Shown here: positions 6,427 to 54,749 of the stretch, piece after piece
Layout: each line of letters starts with the position of its first letter
Position numbering within the stretch: the first letter of the stretch is position 1
Source of the DNA: Rhodoferax fermentans
GTDB lineage: Bacteria; Pseudomonadota; Gammaproteobacteria; Burkholderiales; Burkholderiaceae_C
Length of the DNA stretch: 64,000 nucleotides
Reading direction: 5' to 3'
NCBI RefSeq assembly: GCF_002017865.1
Contig: NZ_MTJN01000002.1
Location: forward strand, 930,001 to 994,000
Translations under genes and position numbers: made by a program
The notes under the pieces: model-generated
What the model saw: the letters and a program-made list of their open reading frames with translations, nothing else
Databases searched by the model: none
What the model was told of the DNA's origin: nothing

Positions 6427-6457
6427 TAGCTACCAGCGCTTGTTTATCAAGCGGCTG
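6427..6457. repeat. Palindromic repeat, AGCGCTTG-arm form, overlapping the tpiA stop
   Basis: TAGCTACC is followed by AGCGCTTG, a short loop and CAAGCGGCT. This is the imperfect GCTTG-arm version of the dispersed repeat family of the window, with the same TAGCTA flank. The right arm contains the TGA stop of tpiA (6447-6449), so the last codons of tpiA read through the repeat. Confidence 0.6.
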
Positions 6458-7187
6458 CAGCAATAATCGTTAAAAAATCCGGGGCTTTGAGGGCGGCGCC
6501 GCCAATCAGGCCACCGTCAATATCGGGTTGGGCCAGCAGCGAGGCTGCGTTGGCCGCATTCATGCTGCCACCGTACAGCAGCTTGATGCGGTCGGCATGC
6601 TCGGAAGCGGCCTTCAACTGGGCACGCAACACCGCGTGCACTTGCTGCGCCTGCTCCGGCGTTGCCGTCTTGCCGGTGCCAATGGCCCAGACCGGCTCGT
6701 ACGCCACCACCACCTCGCTGATGCAATGTCCGTTTGTTTGGATCACTGCGGCCAGCTGACGCTTGACCACCTCGTCCGTGAGGCCTGCTTCACGCTCGGC
6801 CAGCGTCTCACCCACACACACAATCGGCGTGATGCCACTGCTCAGGGCGCGCTGCGCCTTGGTGGCAACCACAGCATCAGTCTCGCCATGGTACTGGCGG
6901 CGCTCGGAGTGGCCCACGATGGCGTAACGCACTCCAAACTCCTTGAGCATGGCCGCCGAGGTTTCACCGGTGTAGGCACCTGCTTCATGCGCCGAAATGT
7001 CTTGCGATGCGAGATCGATCTTGGTGCCCGCCAGCAAGGCCTGGCACTGCCCCAGATACACCGCAGGCACACCCACGGCGACCTCGCAGCTGGCTTGACC
7101 CAGGCCGGCGAGGATGTCTTTGAGCAGCTTGTCATTGGCAGCCAGGCTGCCGTTCATCTTCCAGTTACCTGCAATCAGCTTTTTCAT
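6447..7187 (-). CDS. tpiA: Triose-phosphate isomerase
   Basis: Interconverts dihydroxyacetone phosphate and glyceraldehyde 3-phosphate in glycolysis and gluconeogenesis. The product is 246 aa starting [13 protein letters not shown], with the catalytic lysine in GNWKMNG. The catalytic histidine is in VGHSERR, and the catalytic glutamate and loop 6 are in [15 protein letters not shown]. Its 5' end overlaps the last 23 bases of the upstream oxidoreductase gene, which suggests translational coupling. Its stop lies inside a palindromic repeat. Confidence 0.97.
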
Positions 7188-8190
7188 GATGTTGTTCCCA
7201 AGTCAAAACAATTTTTCCAACGTGCTGGCTCGATTCCATCAAGGCATGCGCCGCCGCCACATCGGCCGCCGCCAACGACCGGTAGATCACCGGCTTGATC
7301 CGTCCGTCAGCCAGCGCTGGCCAGACGTTTTTCAGACAGGCTTTGGCAATGGCGGCTTTGAAAGCCACCGACCTGGGCCGCAAGGTCGAACCCGTGATGG
7401 TCAGACGCTTGCGCAAGACCAGGCCCGCGTTGAACTCGCTGCGGGTACCACCTTGTATCGAAATGATGACAAGGCGCCCATCGTCCTTGAGGCATTGAAC
7501 CTCTTTGGCCACATAAGCCCCGGCCACAATGTCCAGGATCACATCCACACCTTGACCCTCCTCGGTCAGGCGCAACACCTCGTCCTGGAAATCCTGTGTC
7601 TTGTAGTTGATGGCAGCGTCCGCCCCCAGGGCGATGCAAGCCTCACATTTTTCAGCGCTGCCCGCCGTCACAAACACCCGTGCACCGGCCAGTTTGGCCA
7701 GCTGGATGGCGGTGACACCAATGCCGCTGGAGCCCCCCTGGATCAGCACGGTTTCACCGGGCTGCAGGCGCGCACGCTCCATCAGGTTGCTCCAGACCGT
7801 GAAAAACGTCTCGGGCAGACTGGCCGCCTCGACATCACTCAAGCCCGCAGGCACCGGCAGACATTGGGCAATAGGCGCCACGCAGTACTCTGCATAACCG
7901 CCACCCGCCACCAGCGCACACACACGGTCACCCAGCTGGAATCCAGCCGCAGCCAACTCAAGCGGGTCGCCCGCTTCGATGGTGCCAGCCACTTCAAGCC
8001 CCAGAATGTCCGAAACTCCCGGCGGCACCGGGTAGTGTCCTTGGCGCTGCAACACATCGGGACGATTGACACCACTGGCTGCCACACGGATAAGCAATTC
8101 CCCCGCGCCCGCGACAGGCACAGGCCGCTCACCCAGATGCAAAACATCTGGGCCGCCGAAGCCAGTGATTTCAATCGTTTTCATGGTCAT
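7165..8190 (-). CDS. NAD(P)H-quinone oxidoreductase, zinc-less MDR family
   Basis: Quinone oxidoreductase/enoyl-reductase-like member of the medium-chain dehydrogenase superfamily, 341 aa. The N-terminal GroES-like domain includes [14 protein letters not shown]. It is followed by the nucleotide-binding motif [15 protein letters not shown] at about residues 150-165. No catalytic-zinc cysteine/histidine set is seen, as expected for the Qor/PIG3 group. The start at 8190 (MTMKTIE) is supported by AGAGG five bases upstream. That AGAGG is the flank of the adjacent palindromic repeat. MKTIE at 8184 is the alternative. Confidence 0.88.
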
Positions 8191-8233
8191 TTTGGCCTCT
8201 AGCCCTTATTCAATAAGGGCTAGCAGCTATCAA
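8191..8233. repeat. Palindromic repeat (best copy), between pnp and qor
   Basis: Perfect 12-bp arms, CTAGCCCTTATT and AATAAGGGCTAG, meet around one base (8199-8223). Read on the minus strand, the flanks are TTGATAGCTG before and AGAGGCCAAAA after. This is the most symmetric copy of the family. It abuts the qor start codon, and its AGAGG probably serves as the ribosome-binding site. Confidence 0.85.
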
Positions 8234-8244
8234 CTTGATAACTC

Positions 8245-10368
8245 TCAGGCCCGGTTGTCCGCGCCGGTTTGGGCAGGACGCTCCAACAAGGCTTTCATCG
8301 ACAGCTTGATGCGGCCTTTTTCGTCGGTTTCCATGACCTTGACCTTGACGATCTGGCCTTCTGCCAAATAGTCGGTGACCTTCTCGACACGTTCATGGGC
8401 GATCTGGCTGATGTGCAACAAGCCGTCCTTGCCAGGCAAGAGGTTGATCAATGCACCGAAGTCGAGGATCTTGACCACCGGGCCTTCGTAGACCTTGCCG
8501 ATTTCGACTTCGGCGGTGATCTGCTCGATGCGGCGTTTGGCTTCTTCAGCCTTGGCCGGATCTGCGGACGCAATGGTGATGGTGCCGTCTTCGTCGATGT
8601 TGATCTGGGTGCCGGTTTCTTCGGTCAGCGCACGGATCACCGCGCCGCCCTTGCCGATCACATCACGGATCTTCTCGGGGTTGATCTTCATCGTGAACAG
8701 GCGCGGTGCGAAGTTGGAGACTTCGGTCTTGGCCTCACCCATGGCTTCGACCATCTTGCCCAGGATGTGCATGCGTGCTTCTTTGGCTTGGGCCAAAGCG
8801 ACTTGCATGATTTCCTTGGTGATACCTTGGATCTTGATGTCCATCTGCAGCGCGGTGATGCCGTTGGTGGTACCGGCCACCTTGAAGTCCATATCGCCCA
8901 GGTGATCTTCGTCGCCCAGGATGTCGGTCAGCACCGCAAAACGGTTGTCGTCCTTGATCAGGCCCATGGCGATACCGGCCACATGCGCCTTCAACGGCAC
9001 ACCAGCGTCCATCAAGCTCAAGCAGCCGCCGCACACCGACGCCATCGAAGACGAGCCATTGGACTCGGTCACTTCAGACACGACACGCATGGTGTAGGGG
9101 AAGTCTTCCTTGTTGGGCAACACCGCAACGAGCGCACGTTTGGCCAGACGGCCGTGGCCGATTTCGCGGCGCTTGGGCGTACCAACACGACCGGTTTCGC
9201 CGGTGGCGAAGGGAGGCATGTTGTAGTGCAACATGAAACGGTCTTCGTAGTCACCAGCCAGCGAATCCACGCGCTGGGCATCACGCTCGGTACCGAGCGT
9301 GGTCACCACCAGCGCCTGGGTTTCACCACGGGTGAACAGGGCTGAGCCGTGGGTACGGGGCAACACGCCGTTGCGGATTTCGATGGCACGCACGGTGCGG
9401 GTGTCACGGCCGTCGATACGGGGTTCGCCAGCCAGAATTTGGCCACGCACGATCTTGGCTTCGATCTCAAACAGCAGGCCTTCGATGGCCACGCTATCAA
9501 ACGCCACGCCTTCTTCCTTCAATGCAGCCATGACTTCAGCATAGGCAGCACGGCAGGCTTGGGTGCGGGCTTGTTTGTTGCGGATCTGGTAAGCGGCGAC
9601 CAGCTTGTCTTTGGCCAGGCCGTCGATCTTGGCGATCAGCGCTTCGTCCTTGGCGGCAGGTTTCCAGTCCCACACCGGTTTGCCAGCGTCACGCACGAGT
9701 TCGTGGATCGCATTGATGGCAATCGCACCCTGGGTGTGACCAAACACCACCGCACCGAGCATGATGTCTTCGGACAGCTGGTCGGCTTCGGACTCCACCA
9801 TCAGCACGGCCGATTCGGTACCAGCCACCACCAGGTCCATCTGGCTGTTCTTGCGCTGGGTTTGGCCCGGGTTGAGCACGTACTCACCATTGATGTAACC
9901 GACGCGGGCGGCGCCAATCGGTCCGCTGAACGGCACGCCGCTGATGGACAGCGCAGCGCTGACGGCAATCATGGCGGCGATGTCGGCATCCACTTCGGGG
10001 TTGAGCGACAGGGTGTGCACCACCACATGCACTTCGTTGAAGAAACCTTCGGGGAACAGCGGGCGAATCGGACGGTCGATCAGGCGACTGGTCAGGGTTT
10101 CGTATTCGCTGGGGCGGCCTTCACGCTTGAAGAAGCTGCCGGGAATGCGGCCTGCGGCGTAGGACTTTTCGAGGTAATCCACGGTCAAGGGGAAAAAGTC
10201 CTGGCCAGCCTTGCCTTCAGACTTGGCCACCACGGTGGCCAGCACCACGGTGCCGTCCATGTCGAGCATCACTGCACCGCTGGACTGACGGGCGATTTCG
10301 CCGGTTTCCATGGTGACCGTGTGTTGACCCCATTGGAAAGTCTTGCTAACTTTTTTGAACATCGTCAT
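8245..10368 (-). CDS. pnp: Polyribonucleotide nucleotidyltransferase (PNPase)
   Basis: 3'-5' phosphorolytic exoribonuclease of mRNA decay and the degradosome, 707 aa. The two RNase PH-like domains are joined by the alpha-helical linker. A KH domain lies near residue 555 ([18 protein letters not shown]) and an S1 domain near residue 625 ([18 protein letters not shown]). The second PH core keeps [10 protein letters not shown] and [11 protein letters not shown]. The start MTMFKKV at 10368 has AGGAG seven bases upstream. It follows rpsO, and the leader between them carries two hairpins. Confidence 0.97.
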
Positions 10369-12835: not shown

Positions 12836-12872
12836 GATAGCTATATGCCCTTATTGCAAAAGGGCTAGAGGC
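12836..12872 (+). repeat. Palindromic repeat between hsp20 and tsaD
   Basis: GATAGCTATATGCCCTT, a loop, then AAGGGCTAGAGGC. The flanks AGCTAT and CTAGAGGC match the family consensus in plus orientation. The left arm carries a mismatch (TGCCCTT for AGCCCTT). It lies between convergent genes. Confidence 0.75.
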
Positions 12873-12890
12873 TTATTTCTTATATAAACC

Positions 12891-19210: not shown

Positions 19211-20630
19211 ATTAACTGTGATCTCGGTGGCCTGTGCCAGTGTGTTGTCAGCCTGCTCGCTGATCCCCACCTACGAGCGGCCTGCAGCACCCATCGCCAC
19301 CCAGTGGCCCACGGCAGCTGCGGCCACGGCCAGATCTGAAAAACAAAGCACCAGCCCCTTATGGAATAAGGGCTGGGAGGAGTTTTATACCGATATAACG
19401 GTGCAGCAGCTGATCCACACCGCACTGGCCAACAACCGTGATCTGCGGGTGTCGGTGCTCAACATCGAACAAGCCCGCGCCCAGCTGGGCCTGCGCCGTG
19501 CCGACCAGTTTCCGGCCGTCAACGCCACACTGAGCGGCTCGCGGGTGCCCAACAGCAGCGGCGGCATCACCAGCAGCTACACCGGTGGCTTGACCTTCAC
19601 CGCATACGAACTGGACTTTTTTGGCCGGGTCGCCAGCCTCAAGGAACAGGCCCTGGCCCAGTATCTGGCCACCTCCGAGGCCACCAAAACGGTGCAGATC
19701 AGCCTGATGGCCAGTGTGGCGCAAAGCTGGCTGAGCCTGTTGGCTGACGAAGATTTGCTGCGCACCTCGCGCCAGACCCTCGCCACGCGAGAAGAGTCTC
19801 TGAAACTCACCGAACTCAAACGCAGCCACGGTGCGGCGTCTGACCTGGAATGGCGGCTGGCGCAATCGCTGCTGGAAAGTGCCCGTGTCACCCTGGCACA
19901 ACAGCTGCAAAAACGCGCACAGGACGAAAATGCGCTGACCCTGCTGCTGGGCCAAAGCCTGCCTGAGGCCGCCCGCAACCAGCTGGCCCAAGGCCAACTC
20001 GACAGCCAACAGTTCCCCAACCTGCCCGCCGGGCTGCCATCTGACCTGCTGACCTATCGCCCCGATATCCGACAGGCCGAACAAAGCTTGCTGGCCAGCA
20101 ACGCCAACATTGGTGCAGCGCGCGCCGCGTTCTTCCCGCGCATCACACTCACCGCTGGCGCCGGGTCGGCCAGCAGCGAACTCTCGGGTTTGTTCAAGAG
20201 TGGCTCCTGGGGCTGGACCATGGCGCCCAGTCTGGTGTTGCCCATCTTCAACGCGGGCGCCAACCAGGCCAATTTGGACATCGCGCAGGCGACACGCGAC
20301 ATCGCGGTGGCGCAATACGAAAAAACCATCCAGAGCGCGTTTCGCGAGGTGGCCGATGCCCTGGCTGGCCAGGACACCCTGGCGCAACAGCTCCAGTCGA
20401 GTGAGGCGTTGCTGAAAGCAGAGAGTGAACGCACCCGTCTGACCAAACTGCGTTTTGACAATGGCGCGGCCAGCCAACTCGACTGGCTCGATGCCCAGCG
20501 CTCTCTGTTCACCACCCAGCAGTCTCTGGTGCAAACGCGCCTGGCGTATTTGCAGAACCAGGTCACCCTGTTCAAAAGCCTTGGGGGCGCCAATCCGGAG
20601 CTGAGCATCGAGCCTGGCAAGGCCCCCTGA
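19203..20630 (+). CDS. RND efflux outer-membrane lipoprotein (OprM/NodT family) with a repeat-derived insert
   Basis: Outer-membrane channel of the tripartite pump, 475 aa. The lipobox LSAC places Cys at residue 18. Two OEP repeats follow, with landmarks NNRDLRVSVLNIEQARAQLGLRRA, AYELDFFGRV and YRPDIRQAEQSLL. The start at 19203 overlaps the acrB-type stop by 8 bases. Residues 51-58 (SPLWNKGW) are encoded by a palindromic repeat copy, in the N-terminal linker just before the first conserved helix. The family normally has a short, variable Ala-rich stretch there, so the insert is probably tolerated. Confidence 0.93.
   Translation: MNKLTVISVACASVLSACSLIPTYERPAAPIATQWPTAAAATARSEKQSTSPLWNKGWEEFYTDITVQQLIHTALANNRDLRVSVLNIEQARAQLGLRRADQFPAVNATLSGSRVPNSSGGITSSYTGGLTFTAYELDFFGRVASLKEQALAQYLATSEATKTVQISLMASVAQSWLSLLADEDLLRTSRQTLATREESLKLTELKRSHGAASDLEWRLAQSLLESARVTLAQQLQKRAQDENALTLLLGQSLPEAARNQLAQGQLDSQQFPNLPAGLPSDLLTYRPDIRQAEQSLLASNANIGAARAAFFPRITLTAGAGSASSELSGLFKSGSWGWTMAPSLVLPIFNAGANQANLDIAQATRDIAVAQYEKTIQSAFREVADALAGQDTLAQQLQSSEALLKAESERTRLTKLRFDNGAASQLDWLDAQRSLFTTQQSLVQTRLAYLQNQVTLFKSLGGANPELSIEPGKAP
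19353..19374 (+). repeat. Palindromic repeat copy translated inside the oprM-type gene
   Basis: AGCCCCTTAT and ATAAGGGCT arms face each other around a short loop, inside an open reading frame that stays intact. The TAGCTA and AGAGGCC flanks are not conserved here, so only the core is visible. Confidence 0.75.
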
Positions 20631-21937: not shown

Positions 21938-21941
21938 CCGG

Positions 21942-26173: not shown

Positions 26174-27982
26174 ATGAAATTTGAAGAACTCAATCTGGCT
26201 CCGGCCATCATCAAAGCTGTGCTTGAGCAAGGCTATGAAAACCCCACGCCGATCCAAGCCCAGGCGATCCCGCTGGTGCTTGACGGCCACGACCTGTTGG
26301 GCGGCGCCCAGACTGGCACCGGCAAAACCGCTGCCTTTGTGCTGCCCATGCTCAACAAACTCTGCGCACAGGAAGCCCCTCGCAACAAGTTTGGTGGCAT
26401 CGGCATCCGCGCCCTGGTACTGACCCCCACCCGCGAGCTGGCAGCCCAGGTCGAAGAATCGGTGCAAACCTACGGCAAATACCTGGAGATCAGCTCGGCT
26501 GCCGTGTTTGGTGGTGTCGGCATGAACCCCCAAATCAGCCGCATGAAAAAAGGTGTGGACGTGCTGGTGGCCACCCCTGGCCGACTGCTCGACCTGATGC
26601 AACAAGGCATGCTCGACCTGGGTCAGGTACAGATCCTGGTGCTCGACGAAGCCGACCGCATGCTCGACATGGGCTTCATCCATGACGTGAAAAAAGTGCT
26701 GGCCGCCGTGCCCAAGGACAAACAAAGCCTGTTGTTCTCGGCCACCTTCAGCGACGAAATCCGTGAACTCGCCGCCACCCTGCTGAAAAATCCGCAAAGT
26801 GTGCAAGTCACCCCGCGCAACACCACGGTGCAACGCATCACCCAGCTGATCCACCCCGTGGGTCGTGGCAAGAAAAAGGCCTTGCTCGCCCACATCGTGC
26901 AAGAACACAACTGGAGCCAGGTGCTGGTGTTCACCCGCACCAAGTTTGGCGCCAACAATGTGGCTGAGTTTTTGACCAAAAACGGCATCAATGCCATGGC
27001 ATTACACGGCAACAAGAGCCAGACCGCGCGCACCCAGGCGCTGGCTGACTTCAAGAGCGGTGACGTGCGCGCCCTGGTGGCCACCGACATTGCCGCCCGT
27101 GGCATCGACATCGACGACCTGCCGCATGTGGTGAACTACGACATCCCCAATGTCTGCGAAGACTATGTGCACCGCATTGGCCGCACTGGCCGTGCTGGCG
27201 CCGAAGGCCAGGCGGTGAGCCTGGTGAGCCTGGACGAAGAAGGTTTCATGCAAGCCATTGAACGCTTCACCAAACAGGATATTCCGGTGCAAATCATTGC
27301 CGAGTTCATGCCCGAACCCGGTGAAAAAGCCGAACCCATCGCCATGGGCCGCCAGACCATCTGGGGCGGCGCTGGCAAACCACCGAGCCGTGACGTGATG
27401 ATGGCTGCCGCCAAGGCCGCCCGCACCGAGATGCTGACACGTGTGCGCGAAAGCAAGGGCCCAGGCGCCGCCCGCCCTGCCAATGGCGGCGGCAACGGTG
27501 GTGCAGGCCGTGGCCGCAGCGGTGGCGGTGGTGGTGGCCGAGGTCCCCGTCCGGCAGGTGGTGAAGGCCGCCCTGCCAACCCGCGCAACGACGGCAACTT
27601 TGATGCCGACGGTGGTGGCCGCAGCATGGAGCCACGCAGCCATTTGTCCGCCGCTGAACAAGCGGTGCGTGGCCCGGGTCAACGCCCGGCGCGTGGTTAC
27701 GGTGGTGGCAACGGCGGCGGTTACGGTGGCCCAGCCCCGGCACCCGCACGTGGTGCTGGTGGTCAGCCCGACCCGATGCGCACCAGCGTTGACATGATGT
27801 CTGACCGCGGCCCGCGTCGCAATGGTGGCGGTGGTTTTGGTGGCGGCAACCGCAATGCCGGCCCCGCAGGCGCAGGCTTTGGCAGTGGCCCAAGCCGCTC
27901 GGGCGGTGGCAACCGCTCCGGCAGCCGCGGTCGTTCCGGCGGCCCCGCTGGTGGTGGCTCACGTGGGCCCAGCAGCCGCTGA
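26174..27982 (+). CDS. rhlE: DEAD-box RNA helicase, RhlE type
   Basis: ATP-dependent RNA helicase of 602 aa. All core motifs are visible: Q-motif region [68 protein letters not shown] and [10 protein letters not shown]. After about residue 430 the protein becomes a long Gly/Arg/Pro-rich low-complexity tail with GGG and RGG-like runs, typical of betaproteobacterial RhlE and likely to bind RNA. ATG 26174 is chosen over 26162 because MKFEELNL is the family start. Confidence 0.94.
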
Positions 27983-27987
27983 GCCAC

Positions 27988-28018
27988 ATAACAAAGGGGC
28001 TTGAAGCCCCCTTGTTAT
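27988..28018 (+). terminator. Intrinsic (possibly bidirectional) terminator after rhlE
   Basis: ATAACAA and GGGGCTT pair with AAGCCCC and TTGTTAT around a tight loop, with one A-C mismatch. The hairpin follows the rhlE stop by five bases, and a T-rich stretch comes after. Confidence 0.8.
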
Positions 28019-28036
28019 TCAGTCTTTTAGCACTCC

Positions 28037-28066
28037 AGCCCTTGATTCATAAGGGCTGATAGCTAT
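28037..28066 (-). repeat. Palindromic repeat between rhlE and cupin gene
   Basis: AGCCCTT and AAGGGCT arms around GATTCAT are followed by GATAGCTAT. In minus orientation this is the usual AGCTAT flank. It lies just beyond the rhlE terminator. Confidence 0.8.
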
Positions 28067-28117
28067 TTAATCTGTAGTTGACAACCACACCAGCAGCTGC
28101 TGGTGTGATGGCTTTGG

Positions 28118-28501: not shown

Positions 28502-28639
28502 GATCTACTCGGGTTGGTTGAAAATAGGCGCCATTATTCCCCAACCATGGCCTGAAAACGGCCCAAGACCCTGGTTTGCTAACGCGATATAGCCAACTCT
28601 TGATTTCACCCCTTGTTTCAATTTTTTTAAGCTTCCACC

Positions 28640-29053: not shown

Positions 29054-29089
29054 GACCAGCACCGGGCTGGCGCCAGCGCGGGCCAGACG

Positions 29090-31665: not shown

Positions 31666-31682
31666 GATGGTTGAAATTTTTA

Positions 31683-31695: not shown

Positions 31696-31805
31696 ATACT
31701 CAATGGTAACCCAGTCTGGTCTCTGGCGGTGTTTCAACAGGTACTTGGCGGTTACGAGCGCCTCTTCGGCACCCTCGCTCCAGACTGCTTCTTTATACTG
31801 CCGAC

Positions 31806-33043: not shown

Positions 33044-33079
33044 GGATCACAGCGCCTGCGCCCGGCCTGTCACCCCCGC

Positions 33080-34828: not shown

Positions 34829-34855
34829 AGGAAATTCCAGGTAGTTGCAGCTGTT

Positions 34856-35368
34856 TCAAGCCATTGAAGGATCTATGCCCATGTCCGAACTGGACATGAG
34901 TTTTCCGATGTCGATCAGGATCAGCATGCGGTTTTCCAGCGAGCCTATGGCCAGCAGGTGGTCGCTGCCAATGGCCGATGACAGCTCGGGCACCGGGCGT
35001 AATTGCTCCGGGCTCAGGGTGATGACGTCTGAGACCCCATCGACCACCATGCCCACCACCCGGCTGCCGATGTTGAGAACAATCACCACAGTGAAGTGGT
35101 CGTAATTGACCGGGTTGAGCTTGAACTTGATACGCATGTCCACCACCGGCACGATCACACCGCGCAGGTTGACCACCCCCAAAATGTGTTCAGGCGCATT
35201 GGCCATGCGGGTGGGACGCTCGAAGGAGCGAATTTCCTGCACCCGCAGGATGTCGATGCCGTACTCTTCCTCACCCAGCTTGAATGCCAGGAACTCACTG
35301 ACAGCCAAGGCCCGGTTCACGTCCGTGACAGGTGTCGCTCCATGATGCGCAGCGTCTGTGCTTTCCAT
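34856..35368 (-). CDS. cheW: Chemotaxis coupling protein CheW
   Basis: Adaptor linking receptors to the CheA kinase, 170 aa. It contains FLAFKLGEEEYGIDILRVQEIR, ILGVVNLRGVIVPVVDMR and VVDGVSDVITL, the typical CheW core. The start MESTDAAHH at 35368 is supported by GGAGG six bases upstream, whereas the upstream ATG at 35380 has no such site. The gene pairs with the chemoreceptor downstream, 27 bases apart. Confidence 0.94.
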   Translation of the reverse strand: MESTDAAHHGATPVTDVNRALAVSEFLAFKLGEEEYGIDILRVQEIRSFERPTRMANAPEHILGVVNLRGVIVPVVDMRIKFKLNPVNYDHFTVVIVLNIGSRVVGMVVDGVSDVITLSPEQLRPVPELSSAIGSDHLLAIGSLENRMLILIDIGKLMSSSDMGIDPSMA

Positions 35369-35631
35369 GTTTACCTCCATATTTTCAACATCAAACCATA
35401 CAATTTGACAAAATTATATATTAATTGATAAATTTTGCATGTTTCGATAAAAATTCGAAGCTAGGTGTTCAGAACAGGCTGAGTAGCCAGAGCGAATCAC
35501 TTGGAAGGGGCGTGGCAGGTGGCCGCATCAAAGTCCTGCCCCAACCAGTGTGAGGGCGGCACCACAACGCGTCAAGTCAAGACACATCGGGACAAACCCG
35601 GCAGAAGCGCCGGGCCCGCAGTGCCAAAACC
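35369..35631. other. Intergenic region upstream of cheW, AT-rich
   Basis: The first 90 bases next to cheW are strikingly AT-rich (a TTATATATTAATTGATAAA-like stretch), unlike the surrounding DNA, and probably hold the cheW-mcp promoter. The remainder up to the permease stop holds no gene I can support. Confidence 0.4.
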
Positions 35632-36594
35632 TCAGCCGAGCCAGCCCACCAAAGCCATCACCAGCGAAATCGTCAACAGGCCCAACAAGGTCGACACCGC
35701 CAGGCTGGCGGTCACCAGTTCTTGTGCGACCTCGTAACGCTGGGCAAACAGGAACACATTGGCGCCCATGGGCAAGGCGGCGGTGACGATCATCACGTTC
35801 AGGGTGGGGCCTGCCATGCCCAGCCCCCAGCCCAAAAGTGCTACCAGCAATGGCAGGGCCAGGTTTTTCAGCAGGCTGATGCCCAAAGCCGCTTTCAGGT
35901 GGGTGCCAATCTGCACCTGTGTCAGCATCGCACCCACCAGCACCAGCGCCACCGGCCCAAAGGCACTGCCCAGCAATTGCAGCGGCCGGTCCACCACCTC
36001 GGGCAACACCAGCCCGGTCTGCGCAAACAACAAACCCGCAATGATCGGCATCGGCACCGGGTGGATCAGGCCACCTTTCAAGGCCAGCAACACCGTCAGT
36101 GCCATGTGCTGCTGGCCGCCCTGCCCGGCCAGGCGCGCCTGGCGTGCACTGGCCATCTCCAGCACCACGGTGGTGATGGTCAACATCACCAGCAAATGCA
36201 CCGACACCAGGGTCAGCAGCGTGACCATGCCGGCCTGCCCGTAGGCCAGGCTGATCAGCGGGATACCGATCATCACGGTGTTGCTGAAGGTGCAGGCCAG
36301 CGCCAGCACGGCGGCCCGGTGGTCGCGGCCCTTGCCCACAAAAACGCCCATGAACAGCAGCAGCACGGCGGCGAAGTACATGAGCAGTGGCCTGAAGTTG
36401 AGCTGCTCCACATGCACCGTGCTCATGGTGCGAAACAGCAAGGCCGGTGTGAGCACCGAAAACACCAGGTTGGAGAGGTCTTTGTTGGCCTCGACCCGGA
36501 TCAGTCCAGCTCGAACCGCGATGAAGCCGATAGCAATCAAAAAAACCACGGGCAACAAGGCCGAGACAACAGGACTGTTCACTTCAAACAACAC
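35632..36594 (-). CDS. AEC-family auxin-efflux-carrier-type permease
   Basis: Membrane transporter of about 320 aa with eight to ten hydrophobic helices. Landmarks are LPVVFLIAIGFIAVRAGLI at the N-terminus and ACTFSNTVMIGIPLISLAYG, typical of the AEC family. The substrate is unknown. The only in-frame ATG is far upstream (36789), so I propose a GTG at 36594 (or 36582). No strong ribosome-binding site settles this. Confidence 0.8.
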   Translation of the reverse strand: MLFEVNSPVVSALLPVVFLIAIGFIAVRAGLIRVEANKDLSNLVFSVLTPALLFRTMSTVHVEQLNFRPLLMYFAAVLLLFMGVFVGKGRDHRAAVLALACTFSNTVMIGIPLISLAYGQAGMVTLLTLVSVHLLVMLTITTVVLEMASARQARLAGQGGQQHMALTVLLALKGGLIHPVPMPIIAGLLFAQTGLVLPEVVDRPLQLLGSAFGPVALVLVGAMLTQVQIGTHLKAALGISLLKNLALPLLVALLGWGLGMAGPTLNVMIVTAALPMGANVFLFAQRYEVAQELVTASLAVSTLLGLLTISLVMALVGWLG

Positions 36595-36624
36595 ATGGGA
36601 TAACAAAGACAACGCATGAAAACA

Positions 36625-36660
36625 CAAAAACCACCCAGGCGCTGGCCAGGGTGGTTTTTG
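36625..36660. terminator. Bidirectional intrinsic terminator
   Basis: A perfect 12-bp stem, CAAAAACCACCC/GGGTGGTTTTTG, around a 12-base loop has T-rich flanks on both strands. It lies after the DUF3149 gene and just before the AEC permease. Confidence 0.85.
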
Positions 36661-36715
36661 AATGCTGATAGCCGGGGGGGTGACGCTCAGGTCGGCCGCC
36701 CGGCCAGACAGGGCG

Positions 36716-36859
36716 TTATTTGTGCGCGCTACGTTCGGCCTCAGCCATTTTTTTCCGCAACACAACATAGGCATAACCCAGACCCGCAATCATCGCGGCG
36801 ATGACCACAACACTCATCAGCCCGTAGTCGGTGGAAAAAAGATCTTGCAACGCTTTCAT
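36716..36859 (-). CDS. DUF3149-type single-helix membrane mini-protein
   Basis: 47-aa protein beginning MKALQDLFSTDYGLMSVVVI, with one hydrophobic segment (residues 15-34) followed by the basic VLRKKMAEAE. This matches DUF3149, a family of tiny CcoQ-like membrane proteins in betaproteobacteria. AAGGAG lies seven bases before the ATG, strong support that it is translated. An FNR-like box lies about 70 bases upstream, and a terminator follows. Confidence 0.8.
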   Translation of the reverse strand: MKALQDLFSTDYGLMSVVVIAAMIAGLGYAYVVLRKKMAEAERSAHK

Positions 36860-36931
36860 GGTTTGGCTCCTTGTCAATCAGGTCAATACGGCCCAAAGAC
36901 CCTACTGTGCGACAGGAATTGCACTCAAAAC

Positions 36932-36945
36932 ATGACAAGGATCAA
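36932..36945 (-). promoter_or_regulatory. FNR-like box upstream of the DUF3149 gene
   Basis: Read on the minus strand it is TTGAT-CCTT-GTCAT. The first half is a perfect FNR/Anr half-site, and the second matches at four of five positions. It lies 73 bases before the start codon, a plausible activator position. Confidence 0.4.
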
Positions 36946-36990
36946 GTCCAGCCCAGATTCAAAGCAGAAACCGCGTTTGGACGGGCGGGT

Positions 36991-37530
36991 TCACCTGGTT
37001 TGCTGGCCATCGAGCATGCGGTAATACAGACCCGTCGGGTCGTCTGACAACACGGCCAAGGTGCCCTCCACCAGCACCGGCTCCAGCGAGTACTTGACCG
37101 GTGTGCGGGTCTTGACTTCGATCATGCTCTCGGGCCCGCCAGGTGTACAAAAGGCGCAGGTCAACGGCACCGAGGTCAAGAGGAAATGGGTCTGTTTCTG
37201 GCCCGGGCTCAGCGGCATCATGAAACCCTGCACCCGCTGGGTTTTGCCGTCCAACGCCAGCACCGCGGCGGGAAAGGTCGGCAGCACCCGCTTCTTGACC
37301 ACGCTGACCTTGACATCCGACAGCAGCGACCAGGGCAACACATCGGCACGTTCGACCAGCGGCGCAAACGGGCTGTTGGGGCTGTGCACACCCGGGCCGG
37401 CCCCCGAAGGCACACCGGCGATCGGCGAACTCAGCTGCGCCAGGGCAGGCGCGGCTGCCGCCAACAGCAGGACAGACAGCGCCAGACCCCGCCAGCCCAA
37501 GCGACCTTCTCTGCGCACCCAATCACCCAT
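36991..37530 (-). CDS. DUF3299 periplasmic protein
   Basis: 179-aa protein with a signal peptide (hydrophobic residues 14-28, then ALAQLSS). The DUF3299 core includes VKKRVLPTFPAAVLALDGK, GFMMPLSPGQKQTHFLL and the paired cysteines PLTCAFCTPGGPE. DUF3299 proteins often accompany an FtsX-like permease and an ABC ATPase, exactly as here. AAAGGGG lies before the ATG. A metal-handling role is likely but inferred. Confidence 0.75.
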   Translation of the reverse strand: MGDWVRREGRLGWRGLALSVLLLAAAAPALAQLSSPIAGVPSGAGPGVHSPNSPFAPLVERADVLPWSLLSDVKVSVVKKRVLPTFPAAVLALDGKTQRVQGFMMPLSPGQKQTHFLLTSVPLTCAFCTPGGPESMIEVKTRTPVKYSLEPVLVEGTLAVLSDDPTGLYYRMLDGQQTR

Positions 37531-37560
37531 GGACGACCCCTTTTTTGAAACCCACTGATG

Positions 37561-37809
37561 TTAGTGCGTGTGTTTCATGCCGCAAAACTTGCCAATCGCC
37601 AGGCCCTTGCATTCCACCTGCAGCTGCTTTTCACAGACCTCGTCAGACTTGCCCGACTCCAGGCATTTGGCGGCATTTTCGTGCGCGGTGGCCATGGCCC
37701 GGTGGCGCGCAATGTCCTCTTGCGTGGCTTTGTCCAGTAGCGTCGTGGCAGCTATGCCAAAAGTAGCAAATGACCCCATCAACATAAGGGCTAGAAGGCT
37801 TTTTTTCAT
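37561..37809 (-). CDS. Small periplasmic Cys/His-containing protein, function unknown
   Basis: 82 aa with an N-terminal signal sequence (about residues 1-21, ending GIAATT). The mature part has cysteines at 49, 59, 67 and 76 and histidines at 36, 43, 80 and 82, ending GMKHTH. I do not recognise the family. The four regularly spaced cysteines suggest two disulfides or a metal site. GGAG six bases before the ATG supports translation. It lies between the FtsX-like permease and DUF3299 genes. Confidence 0.65.
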   Translation of the reverse strand: MKKSLLALMLMGSFATFGIAATTLLDKATQEDIARHRAMATAHENAAKCLESGKSDEVCEKQLQVECKGLAIGKFCGMKHTH

Positions 37810-37880
37810 ACAAACTCCAGACTAAGTTCTAGGGGAAACGACAACAACAGATCGGGGCAGAGCAGCAGCCACATCGGACC

Positions 37881-39083
37881 TCAGCGGCCCTGCAGAAGTT
37901 CCAGCACACTGACGCGGTAGGCCCCCAGCGCGGGCAGCAGCGCCGCCCCCAGTGACACCAGCAGCGCCAAGGCGGGCACCACCAACAAGTCGGACGGCCA
38001 GACCCAGCCGCCCACCAGCAGCGAGCTGTCGAGCTGCAGGAACCAGCCCAGCGCCGCGGTGCAGCCCTGGCCCAGCAACAGACCCAAGGCGCCCGCCAGC
38101 AGGCCCAGCCAGAGCGCCTCACACAGCAGCAAAGCCGCCACCCGCCGGGGCGGTGCGCCCAGCATACGCAGCAACGCCAGGTCGGCCCGGCGCTCACGCA
38201 CCGCGCTCCATAACGCGATGAACACACTCAAACCAGCGGTGAGCAAGAGCACCGCCGCAAAAGCGCGCAGCACCTCGGTGCCCAGGCCCAGCATGTGCAA
38301 GAGCCGGGTGATCTCGACCGCCGGGGCGGCGGCCTGCATGTCGGTGCTGCTGTTGACATAACGCGGAAAAGTCAGTGCCGCCATCGGCGTTTTGTACCGC
38401 ACCAGCGCCAGCGTGATTTCACGCTCGTCTTCCATCACAGCGCGGTCTTCGTCATCGAGTGCGGTGTAGTCCTCGTGCACCTTCCAGACCGAGGCCGTGT
38501 CGGTCAGGATCAGGCGGTCCAGCACACTGGCGCTGGGCTGCAGGATGCCGACCACGGTGTAGGTACTGTCACCGTGAACATGGCCACCTGCGCCCAGACC
38601 ATGCGAGCCAACAAAGGTCTGGCCCAGCTGCAGCCCAAGCTGGCGCGCCACCGTCGAGCCCAGCACCACCTGCATCGGTGTGGTCCAGAGCTGGCCCTGC
38701 GCCAGCTGCGCGTTGTAGTGGTGGATGTAGTTGATGCTGGTGCCCACAATGCGGTAGGCGTGGAAGTTGTCGCCCAGGCTGATCGGGATGATCTGCGCCA
38801 CCTGCGGGTGGCTTTCAAGCTCGCGAATGTCTTTCAGCGGCACATTGCCGGTGGGCACATCCACATGCAACACACCGCTCAAAATCAGCTGCATCGGGCT
38901 GCCCTTGGCACCCACCACCACGTCGATGCCCGCCAGATCGCGGTCAAAGGCTTTTTCCAGCTGGTAACCGACCAGCAGCAAAAAGGTCATTGACGCTAGG
39001 CCCAGCGCCAGCAGCAGCACATTGAGCGCCGAATTCAGTGGCCGCGCCCACAGGTAACGCCAGGCCAACCACAAGGTCTTCAT
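37881..39083 (-). CDS. FtsX/MacB-like ABC transporter permease
   Basis: 400-aa permease with one N-terminal helix (residues 18-40), a large periplasmic MacB-PCD-like domain to about 270, and three C-terminal helices. Features include WLAWRYLWARPLNSALNV at the start and LSVFIALWSAVRERRADLALLRMLGA near residue 300. It lies 16 bases after its cognate ATPase, separated only by part of a palindromic repeat. Confidence 0.9.
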   Translation of the reverse strand: MKTLWLAWRYLWARPLNSALNVLLLALGLASMTFLLLVGYQLEKAFDRDLAGIDVVVGAKGSPMQLILSGVLHVDVPTGNVPLKDIRELESHPQVAQIIPISLGDNFHAYRIVGTSINYIHHYNAQLAQGQLWTTPMQVVLGSTVARQLGLQLGQTFVGSHGLGAGGHVHGDSTYTVVGILQPSASVLDRLILTDTASVWKVHEDYTALDDEDRAVMEDEREITLALVRYKTPMAALTFPRYVNSSTDMQAAAPAVEITRLLHMLGLGTEVLRAFAAVLLLTAGLSVFIALWSAVRERRADLALLRMLGAPPRRVAALLLCEALWLGLLAGALGLLLGQGCTAALGWFLQLDSSLLVGGWVWPSDLLVVPALALLVSLGAALLPALGAYRVSVLELLQGR

Positions 39084-39095
39084 GCTGTGGATTCC

Positions 39096-39132
39096 ATAGC
39101 TACTGGCCCTTTAAGAATAAGGGCTCAAAGCC
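39096..39132 (+). repeat. Palindromic repeat forming the 3' end of the ABC ATPase gene
   Basis: ATAGCTACTGGCCCTTT, then AATAAGGGCTCAAAGCC. The left arm has one mismatch (GGCCCTT). The minus-strand ATPase frame runs through it and stops at the TAG formed by its TAGCTA flank (39100-39102). Confidence 0.85.
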
Positions 39133-39762
39133 ATTTTGACCATCAGGCTTGGGCGGGATCAGCCGCGCCACCCGGGCGTCGTGGGTGGCAATCACCAGGG
39201 TTGCGCCTTGGGTTTGGGCGGTGGCCAGCAACAGCGCCACCGCATCGGCAGCGGCGACATCGTCCAGGCTCGCGGTGGGTTCATCGGCCAGGATCAGGGC
39301 GGGCTGCAGCAACACGGCGCGCGCCAGCGCCACCCGCTGCGCCTGCCCACCCGAGAGCTGCGCAGGCAGGCGTGCCGCCAACTCAGCCACACCCAGTGAC
39401 GCCAGCGCCTGCTCGATGCGTGCAGCGTTTTCTGGCACACCGGCCGCCCACTGCGCCATGGCCAGGTTTTGGTAAACAGTGAGTGCCGCGCTCAAATGCA
39501 ACTTCTGGGGCAAAAAACCGATGGTCCGGGCACGCCAGGCATCGGCGGCGGCAGGCTTGAGCACGCCAAGCAGTTGCCCGGCCACCTCCAGCTGACCATC
39601 GGTGGGCGCCACCAAAGCGGCCACCAGCGCCAGCCAGGTCGATTTGCCACAACCCGAGGGGCCGCTGAGCAACAACACCGTACCGGGCGCCACCATCACA
39701 TCGGGAAAAACCAGCGTGGCACCACCTGGATAAACAAAACGCAAAGCCTGAGAGCGAATCAT
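39100..39762 (-). CDS. ABC transporter ATP-binding protein (MacB/LolD-like), repeat-derived C-terminus
   Basis: 220-aa ATPase partner of the FtsX-like permease. Walker A is SGPSGCGKSTWL, the signature is LSGGQAQRVALARA, and Walker B is LILADEPTASLDD, with the switch histidine in VIATHDARVA. The final ten or so residues (FEPLFLKGQ) are encoded by a palindromic repeat and are not expected in relatives. MIRSQALRF at 39762 is preferred over an ATG at 39780. Confidence 0.9.
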   Translation of the reverse strand: MIRSQALRFVYPGGATLVFPDVMVAPGTVLLLSGPSGCGKSTWLALVAALVAPTDGQLEVAGQLLGVLKPAAADAWRARTIGFLPQKLHLSAALTVYQNLAMAQWAAGVPENAARIEQALASLGVAELAARLPAQLSGGQAQRVALARAVLLQPALILADEPTASLDDVAAADAVALLLATAQTQGATLVIATHDARVARLIPPKPDGQNGFEPLFLKGQ

Positions 39763-48539: not shown

Positions 48540-49466
48540 ATGAAACGACTGACCTTGAAATGGTTGGCCTGCGCCGCCCTGAGTGCGCCTTTGCTGCTGC
48601 AAACCAGCCACGCCGCCGAACCAATCCCGGTGGTAGCCAGCTTCAGCATCCTGGCCGACCTGGTGCAGGTGGTGGGTGGTGAACGCGTGAAGGTGCAGGC
48701 CCTGGTCGGGCCCGATGCCGATGCGCATGAGTTCACACCCTCGCCTGCCGATGCCAAGGCGATTCTGGGCGCACGTCTGTTTGTCATCAACGGGCTCAAT
48801 TTCGAGCCCTGGGCGCAAAAATTGGCCAAGTCAGCCGCTTACGCTGGCCCGACTCTGGTGGCCAGCCAAGGTGTCAAACCCCGCAGCATGCCCGCCGAAG
48901 AAGCGCATGGGCATGGGCATGACCATGGCCACTCGGCCACCGACCCGCACGCCTGGCAAGACCCAACCAACGTCAAGCTGTATGTGAAAAATATTGCCAA
49001 ATCGCTCTCCAGCCTTGATCCGCAGGGGGCTGACAGCTACCAGAAAAATAGCGACGCCTACATCAAGGAGCTTGATACGCTGGATAGCTTTGCCAAAGAG
49101 CAGCTGGCCAGTCTGAGCCCGCGTCAACGCCAGGTGATCACCTCACACGATGCTTTTGGTTACTTTGGCGCGCGTTACCAGATCCGTTTCCTGGCGCCCC
49201 AAGGCATCTCGACCGAGGGTGAGCCCAGTGCCAAAGAGGTGGCCAAACTGATCCGCCAGATCAAGCAGGACAAGATCCGCGCGGTGTTTGTGGAAAACAT
49301 GAGCAACCCCAAGCTGCTGGCGCAAATTGCCAAGGACACCGGCGTGACCCTGGGCGCCAAGCTGTATGTGGACGCCCTTTCCAGCCCCAGTGAGCCAGCC
49401 AGCACTTACCTGAAGCTGATGCAGCACAACGTCACCCAGTTGGTGGCGGGCATGAAACTCAACTGA
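48540..49466 (+). CDS. znuA: Zinc-binding periplasmic protein (ZnuA type)
   Basis: 308-aa cluster-A-I binding protein with a signal peptide ending SHAAEP. Metal ligands appear as DADAHEFTPS, the second histidine after the loop in TDPHAWQDP, and TSHDAFGYF. A His-rich loop (AHGHGHDHGHSATDPH) lies near residues 125-140, the mark of zinc (not manganese) members. AAAGGAATATCCC precedes the ATG. Confidence 0.95.
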   Translation: MKRLTLKWLACAALSAPLLLQTSHAAEPIPVVASFSILADLVQVVGGERVKVQALVGPDADAHEFTPSPADAKAILGARLFVINGLNFEPWAQKLAKSAAYAGPTLVASQGVKPRSMPAEEAHGHGHDHGHSATDPHAWQDPTNVKLYVKNIAKSLSSLDPQGADSYQKNSDAYIKELDTLDSFAKEQLASLSPRQRQVITSHDAFGYFGARYQIRFLAPQGISTEGEPSAKEVAKLIRQIKQDKIRAVFVENMSNPKLLAQIAKDTGVTLGAKLYVDALSSPSEPASTYLKLMQHNVTQLVAGMKLN

Positions 49467-49494: not shown

Positions 49495-49578
49495 ATGCTG
49501 GGCCTGAAGCATCCGGCCAGCTGCAATCGGTGCAGGGCGCCGGGTGCAGACCGCTTTGATATTCATTTTGTAGCGTCA

Positions 49579-49599
49579 AGCGCTTGTTCAACAAGCGCT
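49579..49599. repeat. Palindromic repeat, AGCGCTTG-arm form, before the COG0523 remnant
   Basis: Ten-base perfect arms, AGCGCTTGTT and AACAAGCGCT, meet around one C. The flanking TAGCGTC and TGGGGCTTC resemble degenerated family flanks. It lies in the gap between znuA and the truncated GTPase. Confidence 0.7.
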
Positions 49600-49633
49600 G
49601 GGGCTTCTTTTTGTCAAAAATTTGGAGGTCCCT

Positions 49634-52423: not shown

Positions 52424-53241
52424 GCGCCGCGTCACCCTCTGCCATCGTGACGTCGCCTGCACCGCTGGGACGCTGGGGCGTTTGGGTCCTGCTGGCGGTG
52501 TTGCTGCTGGGCCTGCTGAGCACCTGGCTGGGGCCAGACCCCGCCATCCAGAACCTGGACCAGAGCCTGGCCGCCCCCAGCACCAGCCATTGGCTGGGCA
52601 CCGACCACTTGGGCCGCGACCTGCTGGCCCGCCTGGGCGAGGCGGTGCGTGTGTCGTTCTGGCTGGCGCTGGGCTCAGCCCTGCTGGCTGTGGGGCTGGG
52701 CACCGTGCTGGGGCTGTGCGCCGCCTGGCAGCGCGGGCTGACCGAGCGCCTGCTGTGTCTGTGTGCCGATGGTGTGGCGGCCATCCCTGGCTTGCTCTGG
52801 GTGCTGCTGGTGGCCGCGCTGGCACCGGGGCAAAAATGGGCGCTCTACAGCGGGCTGGTGCTCACCGCCTGGGTGGAGTTCTTCCGCCTGGTGCGCAGCC
52901 GCGCCAGCATGACCCTGGCGGGTGATGCGGTGCAGGCCGGGCGCCTGCTGGGTTTTGGTGCGCCTTACCTGTTGCGCTGGCATGTGCTGCCGCCCCTGCA
53001 GTCCGATCTGCTGCGCCTGTGGAGCTACGCCGTGGCCAACGCGGTGCTGGCGGTCGCGGCCCTGGGTTTTGTGGGGGTGGGCCTGCGCCCGCCCACGGCC
53101 GAACTGGGTCTGATGATGACCGAGGCCCTACCCTACTACGACGAAGCCCCGTGGCTGCTGGCCGGCCCGGTGCTCTTGCTGGTACTGACGGTGGCCGCCC
53201 TGCAATCGGCCACGCGGCCGCATGAAAGAGAGAGCGCATGA
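52420..53241 (+). CDS. ABC transporter permease (DppC/NikC type)
   Basis: 273-aa permease. The conserved HWLGTDHLGRDLLARLGEAVRVSFW near residue 50 is the DppC/NikC hallmark, and the EAA-like loop is GRLLGFGAPYLLRWHVLPPL. The start ATG at 52420 overlaps the previous stop as ATGA. A frame open far upstream is not used. Confidence 0.9.
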   Translation: MSAASPSAIVTSPAPLGRWGVWVLLAVLLLGLLSTWLGPDPAIQNLDQSLAAPSTSHWLGTDHLGRDLLARLGEAVRVSFWLALGSALLAVGLGTVLGLCAAWQRGLTERLLCLCADGVAAIPGLLWVLLVAALAPGQKWALYSGLVLTAWVEFFRLVRSRASMTLAGDAVQAGRLLGFGAPYLLRWHVLPPLQSDLLRLWSYAVANAVLAVAALGFVGVGLRPPTAELGLMMTEALPYYDEAPWLLAGPVLLLVLTVAALQSATRPHERESA

Positions 53242-54710
53242 ACGCCCCCCTGTTGCAGGTCAAGGACCTGCGTATCCACCTCCAGCCCAATGCACAGCAG
53301 CCGAAAGGGCGTACCCTGCTGGAAGCCTGCAGTTTTGCCCTGAACGCTGGTGAGCGCCTCACCATGGTGGGGGAATCAGGTGCGGGCAAGTCGCTGCTGG
53401 CCCAGGCCATCATGGGCACCTTGCCTGCGGCCTTGCGGGCCAGTGGCGCCATCTCGATCGGTGGTGTGGCGACCAACGGCGAGCGCGCCCTGACCCAAGC
53501 GCTGTGGGGTCGGCGCATGATGATGCTGCCGCAGGAGCCCTGGTCGGCACTGAACCCGCTGATGCGCATGCACAGCCAGGTGGCCGAGGCCGCCCATTTT
53601 GCGCGCGGCCTGGACTGGCCCACGGCCAGACAACAAGCCAGCACCCGCTTGCAGGCTGTGGGCGTGGGACATGCCGCACAACAATGGCTGCACCAGATTT
53701 CAGGTGGCATGGCCCAACGTGTGGGTGTGGCCTGCGCCGCCGTGGCACAGGCCAGCCTGTTGATCGCCGATGAGCCCACCAAAGGCCTGGACCCGCAGGC
53801 CTGCGCGCAAGTGGCACAGCTGTTGATGGCGGCCCAGACCCAGGGGCAGGCCCTGCTCACCATCACCCACGACCTGGACCTGGCCGCCCAGCTGGGTGGC
53901 CAGATCGTTGTCATGCGCCAAGGCCAGATCGTGGAACAGGGCCCGGTCCAGCAGGTGCTGCAGCAGCCGCAACATGCCTACACCCAGGCCCTGATCGCTG
54001 CCCAACCCAAACACTGGGCCAACTATCCCTTTGCCGCAACTGGCGAGGCTGAACCGGTGATACAAGCGCATGGCCTGAGCAAGTGCTACGGCGAGCGCCG
54101 CTTGTTTGACGGGCTGGACCTGGCGCTGCAGGCGGGTGAAGTGGTGGCCATCAGCGGCCCCAGCGGTTGTGGCAAAACCACGCTGGGCAATGTGTTGCTG
54201 GGTGTGGTGCAGGCGGATGCCGGACAGGTACAACACCGCACCGGCCTGCCCCGCTGGAAGTTCCAGAAGCTCTACCAGGACCCGCCTGCCGCGTTTTCAG
54301 CTTTTCGCACCCTGGGTCAGGCATTGGCCGATGTGCGCCAGCTGCATGGCCTGTCCGATGCCCAACAAACCCAGTGGATGCAGGCCCTGGGTCTGGATGA
54401 GGGCCTGTTGGCGCGGCGGCCCCACGAGGTCTCGGGTGGGGAGTTGCAACGTTTTGCGCTGCTGCGCCTGATGCTGCTGCAGCCGGCCTTCCTCTTTGCC
54501 GACGAGCCCACCTCGCGCCTGGACCCGATCACCCAGCGCCACACCATGCAGGTGCTGTGTGACTGCGCAGCGCAATCGGGCTGTGCGGTGCTGCTGGTCA
54601 GCCACGATGCCGACCTGGCCCGCAGCAGCAGCCACCGGCATTTGTCGATGGCCGACCTGGGCCGCCAGACGCCACCCCAACATGCCTCTGAAACACTCTG
54701 TTTTCAGTAG
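53238..54710 (+). CDS. ABC transporter ATP-binding protein with two fused ATPase domains (DppD-DppF/NikDE type)
   Basis: 490-aa protein in which the two ATPases of a peptide/nickel importer are fused. The first domain has GESGAGKSLLAQAI, ISGGMAQRVGVACA and LLIADEPTKGLD. The second begins near residue 275 with GPSGCGKTTLGNVL, VSGGELQRFALLR and LFADEPTSRLD. ATGA overlap with the permease completes a four-gene operon. The stop codon TAG (54708-54710) is supplied by the flank of a palindromic repeat. Confidence 0.92.
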   Translation: MNAPLLQVKDLRIHLQPNAQQPKGRTLLEACSFALNAGERLTMVGESGAGKSLLAQAIMGTLPAALRASGAISIGGVATNGERALTQALWGRRMMMLPQEPWSALNPLMRMHSQVAEAAHFARGLDWPTARQQASTRLQAVGVGHAAQQWLHQISGGMAQRVGVACAAVAQASLLIADEPTKGLDPQACAQVAQLLMAAQTQGQALLTITHDLDLAAQLGGQIVVMRQGQIVEQGPVQQVLQQPQHAYTQALIAAQPKHWANYPFAATGEAEPVIQAHGLSKCYGERRLFDGLDLALQAGEVVAISGPSGCGKTTLGNVLLGVVQADAGQVQHRTGLPRWKFQKLYQDPPAAFSAFRTLGQALADVRQLHGLSDAQQTQWMQALGLDEGLLARRPHEVSGGELQRFALLRLMLLQPAFLFADEPTSRLDPITQRHTMQVLCDCAAQSGCAVLLVSHDADLARSSSHRHLSMADLGRQTPPQHASETLCFQ

Positions 54711-54749
54711 CTACTAGCCCTTTCAAAATAAGGGCTAGAGGCCAAAAAG
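54707..54749 (+). repeat. Palindromic repeat with complete flanks, after the ABC operon
   Basis: GTAGCTACTAGCCCTTT, a short loop, AATAAGGGCTAGAGGCC and an A-rich end. This is the copy closest to the family consensus in the plus orientation, and it contains the stop of the preceding gene. Confidence 0.85.

Follow-up and report, generated by a model that had tools for sequence, protein, structure and literature searches.

How does a short palindrome come to occupy the same places in the chromosomes of different bacterial genera and yet be spelled there differently, according to the genome that carries it? The question is raised by a repeat in a 64,000-nucleotide stretch of the Rhodoferax fermentans genome (contig NZ_MTJN01000002.1, positions 930,001 to 994,000; "the window" hereafter). 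Its consensus core reads TAGCTRYY-AGCSCTT-N7-AAGSGCT-AGAGGCC, with weakly conserved edges. An earlier, sequence-only reading took it for a mobile repetitive extragenic palindromic (REP) element. We give about even chances to the view that it is a REP-class hairpin which spread in an ancestor, is now stationary and vertically inherited, and whose sites follow a putative, sequence-specific trans-acting factor.

The family of palindromes with conserved flanks is real. A weight matrix of 65 positions, trained on 57 copies from the R. fermentans genome (those of the window among them), scores 11 copies in the window above 12 and leaves the range from 8 to 12 empty. These comprise all nine sites listed in the sequence-only reading together with 37764 and 49004; the copies at 19346 (score 12.1) and 49004 (14.9) are weak. 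Local shuffles and reversed sequence gave nothing above 8, three codon shuffles gave nothing in genes above 12, and in-gene copies scoring below 25 are individually less certain. The exact pattern AGCCCTT-N5-9-AAGGGCT occurs four times in the window and never in 100 shuffles. When the full motif (30 specified letters) is scored, seven window copies reach 23 to 29 and the best of three mononucleotide shuffles 21, a value that sites 37763 and 49570 equal and site 19345, at 19, does not attain. Across the R. fermentans genome (G000), 209 copies are found at three or fewer mismatches (105 forward, 104 reverse) and none with the reversed pattern; together with flank conservation from about -13 to +50 relative to the core, this rules out a chance-level count. 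In a 454-kb stretch of the same genome 74 copies score above 12, and letting this stretch of about a tenth stand for the whole extrapolates to roughly 730 copies per genome.

Among 299 genomes of the family, 62 carry at least one copy at three or fewer mismatches and 37 carry ten or more. Within the genus, at the same threshold, G121 has 117 copies, G284 one, and G214 none. An exact search of named genomes with the R. fermentans stem form returned 83 stretches, which include Rhodoferax ferrireducens A7, Rhodoferax BLA1 and U11-2br, R. antarcticus, a Comamonas metagenome-assembled genome, and other Comamonadaceae. Exact copies are rare in viral contigs (one contig with the GCGCTT/AAGCGC pattern, none with the second pattern). 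Size, symmetry, scatter, occurrence in part of the family, and placement at gene 3′ ends support assignment to the REP class.

Copies are found at corresponding positions in different species. In the comparison with Rhodoferax BLA1 (G299), whose flanks are about 10% diverged, 50 of the 52 R. fermentans copies that could be aligned on both sides are present and the remaining 2 are partial; conversely, all 45 alignable BLA1 copies are present in R. fermentans. Not alignable on both sides were 22 of the 74 R. fermentans copies (partly owing to the ends of the fetched stretch) and 6 of the 51 in BLA1. Over a longer distance, the site 3′ of pnp holds a same-strand copy, with eight or fewer mismatches, in 26 of 30 genomes from 15 genera, most of them chosen as element-bearing; the best of 20 shuffles has 9 to 12 mismatches, and the misses are G284, G243, G214, and G002. 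Since alignable copies are shared with a close relative and orthologous across genera, recent mobilization is unsupported, and strain-specific presence or absence, which the sequence-only reading had led one to look for, was not seen in the BLA1 comparison apart from the two partial copies. Close inverted pairs of the REPIN type are not in excess either; the coefficients of variation of the spacing (1.01, 1.02, and 1.35) are those of scattered sites. The suggestion that the asymmetric flanks mark a signal wider than the hairpin thus holds for the width (-13 to +50) and fails for recent movement.

At these fixed places the stem is written in one of two "dialects", GCCCTT/AAGGGC (CC/GG) or GCGCTT/AAGCGC (GC/GC). 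The dialect is specific to the genome, and orthologous sites are spelled differently, those within genes included. Exact occurrences of GCCCTT/AAGGGCT, GCGCTT/AAGCGCT, and GCGCTT/AAGGGCT, each followed by NGAG, were counted in 39 genomes. In that order, R. fermentans has 121/0/6 and its genus mate G121 0/32/13; G178 has 31/0/3 and its genus mate G072 0/57/39. Further counts are 0/96/113 in G283, 0/251/3 in G136, 0/0/13 in G002, 1/25/10 in G004, and 0/0/0 in G214 and G284. The reversed control gave no match in the 39 genomes, bar one in G294. Within the R. fermentans stretch the variable letters of the left and right arm are C/G in 60 copies, G/G in 10, T/G in 2, and G/C in 2; the fourth combination is absent from this stretch and that of G121, a statement confined to these two stretches as no genome-wide search for it was made. 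Of 17 pairs between R. fermentans and G121, 13 have C replaced by G as the left S letter, and 13 have G replaced by C as the right one. Intermediates altered in the right arm only exist. That CC/GG is dominant in two genera would suggest two origins of this form, with GC/GG as the intermediate.

The pairs also allow the parts of the element to be compared. The 17 pairs with G121 share orientation and involve 16 distinct G121 copies and 6 R. fermentans copies in genes; they come from 28 of the 74 R. fermentans copies with flank homology in the fetched stretch. Their loops differ at 73 of 119 positions, as in shuffled pairs (74.6, sd 5.0), and are thus saturated, while the stems, S positions excluded, differ at only 18 of 187 and are mostly kept. 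Within R. fermentans, 49 of 57 loops are distinct. Loci L242-L321, chosen by exact arm pattern, show loop change only. Between R. fermentans and BLA1, 27 intergenic pairs differ at 5 of 135 positions in TAGCT, 21 of 81 in RYY, 25 of 351 in the stems, 35 of 189 in the loop, and 146 of 1394 in the far flanks. Here the loop changes faster than the stems (p=1.5e-4) and the flanks (p=0.002), and TAGCT more slowly than the flanks (p=0.009). For 23 in-gene pairs the figures are 1/115 in TAGCT, 23/299 in the stems, 29/161 in the loop, and 110/1183 in the coding flanks, TAGCT again being slower than the flanks (p=6e-4).

In-gene copies are read through in frame, on both strands. Sequence matches identify MiaA, MutS, and TrmJ among the host proteins; others we take, from their sequences, to be a UvrD/Rep-type helicase, isoleucyl-tRNA synthetase, and more. 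For trmJ, 32 genomes were searched and 30 loci fetched, and at 23 of these the element lies in frame at one and the same offset. The loci without it are those of G284, G214, G018, G128, G190, G013, and G005, and TrmJ is clearly shorter in G284 (of the same genus as R. fermentans), G013, and G005. The R. fermentans TrmJ is about 14 residues longer than that of 4xbo. In MiaA and MutS the corresponding stretch is nearly equally long in solved relatives, so that some in-gene copies cannot be taken as clear insertions. The right-arm letter in trmJ, and hence a Gly or Ala, tracks the right-arm share of the genome (5 genomes with G, 17 with C; one-sided p=0.0024, kinship ignored). A protein residue thus goes along with a DNA dialect. 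In-gene copies and dialects are beyond what a single window can show.

Where the copies lie relative to genes was determined with gene calls from our own hexamer model. The 11 copies of the window, with matrix scores, are:

54708-54743, plus strand: R. fermentans-dialect (CC/GG) copy in a convergent gap ahead of a crtA-like gene; score 70.6, no mismatch.
8194-8229, minus strand: R. fermentans-dialect copy in the gap that separates pnp (8245-10311) from a PIG3-type oxidoreductase gene (7165-8190); score 79.3.
12838-12873, plus strand: copy next to tsaD, in a convergent gap; score 67.0.
28030-28065, minus strand: copy in a convergent gap, adjoining a separate terminator-like hairpin (27996-28010); score 62.4.
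39097-39132, plus strand: copy overlapping the end of open reading frame (ORF) 39100-39762; score 51.0.
32397-32432, minus strand: copy within the 3′ end of a pdxH-like gene (31806-32459); score 26.9.
6427-6462, plus strand: copy that retains the GCGCTT form, next to ORF 6447-7187; score 31.6, 23 of 30 letters.
49571-49606, plus strand: copy still in the GCGCTT/AAGCGC form, with a G121 copy at the same site; score 26.0.
37764-37799, plus strand: degenerate copy that the sequence-only reading did not name, with a G121 copy at the same site; score 31.8.
19346-19381, plus strand: weak copy; score 12.1.
49004-49039, minus strand: weak copy within ORF 48540-49466; score 14.9.

At 54708, the first TAG of the element is the stop codon of an ABC-transporter gene (53238-54710). 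In the 454-kb stretch, 13 copies lie in convergent, 30 in tandem, and 2 in divergent gaps, and 29 inside predicted genes; the G121 stretch has 9, 25, 4, and 16, respectively. Relative to the available gaps, a copy is held by 13 of 48 convergent, 30 of 284 tandem, and 2 of 48 divergent ones in R. fermentans (convergent vs divergent, p=0.004), with a weaker contrast in G121 (9 of 43 convergent, 3 of 43 divergent). An initial 50 copies, most of them good matches, placed with an early and poorer gene finder, gave 26 convergent, 18 tandem, none divergent, 5 inside genes, and 1 at an edge. The median distance from a copy to the flanking stop codon is 19 nt in R. fermentans and 29 in G121. Tandem-gap copies have no preferred orientation (11 with and 19 against the genes in R. 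fermentans, 10 and 15 in G121), and plus-strand copies number 44 of 74, 19 of 54, and 26 of 51 in the three fetched stretches. A polarity relative to the chromosome strand (99 typed positions, p=0.016) was considered and is not used as a result.

Does the palindrome form a hairpin, and on which strand? At the pnp site (27 sequences), a 13-pair stem is paired to 92% and its covariation is 0.391; shuffles give 0.220, none of the 500 reaching the observed value, and sliding the pairing gives 0.124 at most. An outer stem makes up part of the asymmetric flanks, which pair and covary at this site across genera; among the R. fermentans copies the flank positions show no excess pairing, and a longer hairpin is unsupported within them. 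On the pnp sense strand there are 61 G-T mispairs and 8 A-C. In R. fermentans, positions 5/31 of the element are mostly and positions 7/29 often unpaired. Terminator calling over 27900-39300 picked out none of the four window copies there; the right stem runs into AGAGGCC with no direct T run, which is not the form of an intrinsic terminator. In Rfam, at gathering score, only a tRNA was matched in the window, which gives membership of the element in an RNA family no support. By eye, the loop of a conserved hairpin upstream of pnp (ATGCCATTCCA...TGGAATG) appears to hold an inverted half of the element in the rpsO-pnp interval of G120 and G270 (L159, L169).

How could old sites acquire a genome-wide wording? 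In the reading that we prefer, the element would probably have spread by insertion in an ancestor and since then have stayed in place, inherited vertically. A trans-acting factor would recognize tag and hairpin sequence-specifically; as its preference shifts, the sites would follow, first in the right arm and then in the left. Since copies occur in both orientations relative to genes, a factor acting on DNA fits best, perhaps on the single-stranded hairpin as do the TnpA-REP proteins. We hold more tentatively, at somewhat less than even weight, the wider picture that several hundred stationary sites per genome are read by a co-evolving factor whose shift of preference would bring about point substitutions in the arms across the chromosome, housekeeping genes included, while the loop drifts: a dialect-switching code without DNA uptake. 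Several observations weigh against the preferred reading. No such factor was found. In the BLA1 comparison the stems are not clearly slower than the flanks either between genes (p=0.06-0.07) or within them (p=0.43), so that rapid change in the loop could account for some of the difference; the G121 copies were located with the R. fermentans matrix, which favors kept stems, while the BLA1 comparison is unbiased in this respect. The test of transcript-strand mispairs by orientation is conflicting (p=0.08 in R. fermentans, p=0.17 in BLA1, and p=0.005 in the opposite direction in G121).

Concerted evolution, in which copies are overwritten by other copies through conversion or replacement and a hypervariable loop hides the process, with no factor selecting single sites, would also yield one arm dialect at old sites, and it accords with a loop that changes faster than the flanks and with stems that are not clearly slower. 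Overwriting of the whole element should copy the loop too, as it sits between the arms, but the loops between switched arms are as different in orthologues as in shuffled pairs, most loops in R. fermentans are distinct, and there are intermediates switched in the right arm only. The loops not having been homogenized, selection or drive on the arm letters is favored, unless the loop is hypervariable, and we consider copying rather unlikely. An RNA hairpin at mRNA 3′ ends, a stabilizer or weak terminator kept for its fold, would suit the position after stop codons and in convergent gaps, the covariation at pnp, and the predominance of G·T over A·C mispairs on its sense strand. It leaves the dialects unexplained, as a swap of C-G for G-C is neutral for the fold, and it agrees poorly with the mixed orientation in tandem gaps, the copies on both strands of genes, the lack of terminator calls, and the conflicting strand test; we judge it unlikely.

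The sequence-only reading suggested an ordinary mobile REP moved by a REP-associated tyrosine transposase (RAYT) of the genome. As it stated, no RAYT lies in the window: the single match to PF01797 (Y1_Tnp) in the R. fermentans genome is located outside it (no search for other transposases was made). That Y1_Tnp gene has a degraded copy of the element at its 3′ end, as do 4 of 14 Y1_Tnp loci in element-bearing genomes (base rate 39/345, p=0.065), and, as a weak association, 33 of the 37 genomes that carry at least ten copies have Y1_Tnp, compared with 189 of the 262 others (p=0.027, kinship ignored). A RAYT as the acting factor is possible, a link that is suggestive and unproven. Mobility itself is improbable: no genome-specific copy was seen among those alignable on both sides, bar the two partial ones, close pairs are not in excess, and G095, G141, G196, and G270 carry ten or more copies with Y1_Tnp undetected. 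Quite improbable, finally, is a signal of the DNA uptake type, for which biased transformation would favor copies matching a receptor and a change of receptor would shift all sites, as in the dialects of DNA uptake sequences (DUS). The genome-wide dialects and in-gene copies do resemble DUS as far as these are described in the accessible text of PMC3630211, and exact copies are rare in viruses; the element is, however, hairpin-shaped and far longer than the 10-12 nt of DUS, and trmJ has an insertion, not altered codons.

The function of REP-class repeats is a long-open question. Same-position copies with different, genome-consistent stems are not predicted by mobility alone, and dialects at shared sites constitute a natural test of selection for recognition versus copying. 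Three features are apparently new: stem dialects that belong to the genome and contrast between orthologous sites, including those inside genes; element positions shared by different genera, both 3′ of pnp and at one trmJ codon; and a loop saturated relative to G121 with stems mostly kept. In the open literature searched, we came across neither a report of orthologous REP sites that switch dialect nor one that unites stationary copies at orthologous positions with saturated loops and an arm switch throughout the genome.

Several known systems share part of this description. Rickettsia palindromic elements are palindromes read in frame inside proteins. The in-frame insertion at trmJ, with shorter genes in G284, G013, and G005, is alike; sequence and host bacteria differ, most copies of the present element lie outside genes, and it has genome-wide arm dialects. 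REP elements, according to the accessible text of PMC3733652, are 20-40 bp palindromes of high copy number with an end tag (GTAG or CGTC). Shared with them are the location mostly in convergent and tandem gaps, no more than about 20 bp from 3′ ends, the use of the tag TAG as stop codon, and some copies in repair and RNA-related genes (PMC3733652); REPs near 3′ ends and within repair genes are thus already in print there. In contrast to GTAG- or CGTC-tagged REPs, the tag of the 57 copies is ATAG in 44, GTAG in 11, and TTAG and GGAG in 1 each, at best a TAG-tagged variant, and, unlike the REPs described in that text, the element shows no excess of close pairs, has arm dialects at shared sites, and has a cognate RAYT that is only putative. 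The names Acidovorax, Delftia, Comamonas, Polaromonas, and Variovorax are absent from the main text of PMC3733652. Different REP classes have been described beside orthologous RAYTs in pseudomonads and stenotrophomonads (available text of PMC3686654).

The core of the element is already in print (2017) as an unexplained motif of Acidovorax ebreus. In the portion of PMC5217627 available to us, the spaced motif GCTTAT(N)5AAGCG has 114 copies (44 convergent, 4 divergent, 59 co-oriented, 5 in genes), fits the core (GCGCTT-AT-N5-AAGCG) with the same placement, and is listed as a potential novel motif, that portion describing neither family nor orthologous sites nor dialects. A Polaromonas naphthalenivorans motif in the same source has ATAGCT in common, and its second half could not be registered with the element (PMC5217627). 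The DUS of Neisseriaceae, as the accessible text of PMC3630211 has it, resemble the element in their many sites per genome and in a species-specific wording, which for DUS follows a binding protein; they are short and not hairpins, unlike the long, hairpin-forming element. The BRE repeats of Bordetella and other Betaproteobacteria, Comamonadaceae included, are likewise dispersed, some in genes; they are about 90 bp long, 69% GC in Bordetella, with up to 29 copies, some in tandem, a comparison by description only (accessible text of PMC3110155). Membership of the element in BRE has no support.

Single-stranded hairpins that carry a GTAG tag are the binding targets of TnpA-REP proteins, and the E. 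coli protein needs a stem mismatch (accessible text of PMC8266576); compared with these targets, the element has a TAG tag and, in R. fermentans, the mostly unpaired positions 5/31 and often unpaired 7/29. The R. fermentans Y1_Tnp gene is adjoined by GGGGTCAGATCCC (L031 1021-1033), and two occurrences of the similar GGGGTCAGACCCC lie close to where the G225 gene (L062) begins; GGGGTCAGATCCC may be the cognate repeat of the gene beside it. The usual number of Y1_Tnp matches is one per genome; G015 has 14, several of them full length with identical scores, a pattern resembling that of an active IS200-type family.

An exact GC/GC element is carried by a single viral contig, IMGVR_UViG_3300030512_000219 (L348). 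On a small second contig of the R. fermentans assembly, an element is identical to a chromosomal one, loop included (G000:C1:15430-15465 and G000:C2:3300281-3300316), which reflects either a duplication or an assembly overlap. In the window, a direct repeat of 300 nt, 75% identical, lies inside two adjacent ORFs (56203-56502 and 57197-57496). Finally, a spheroidene monooxygenase gene (54758-55519; NF045923 above cut-off) points to a phototrophic relative.

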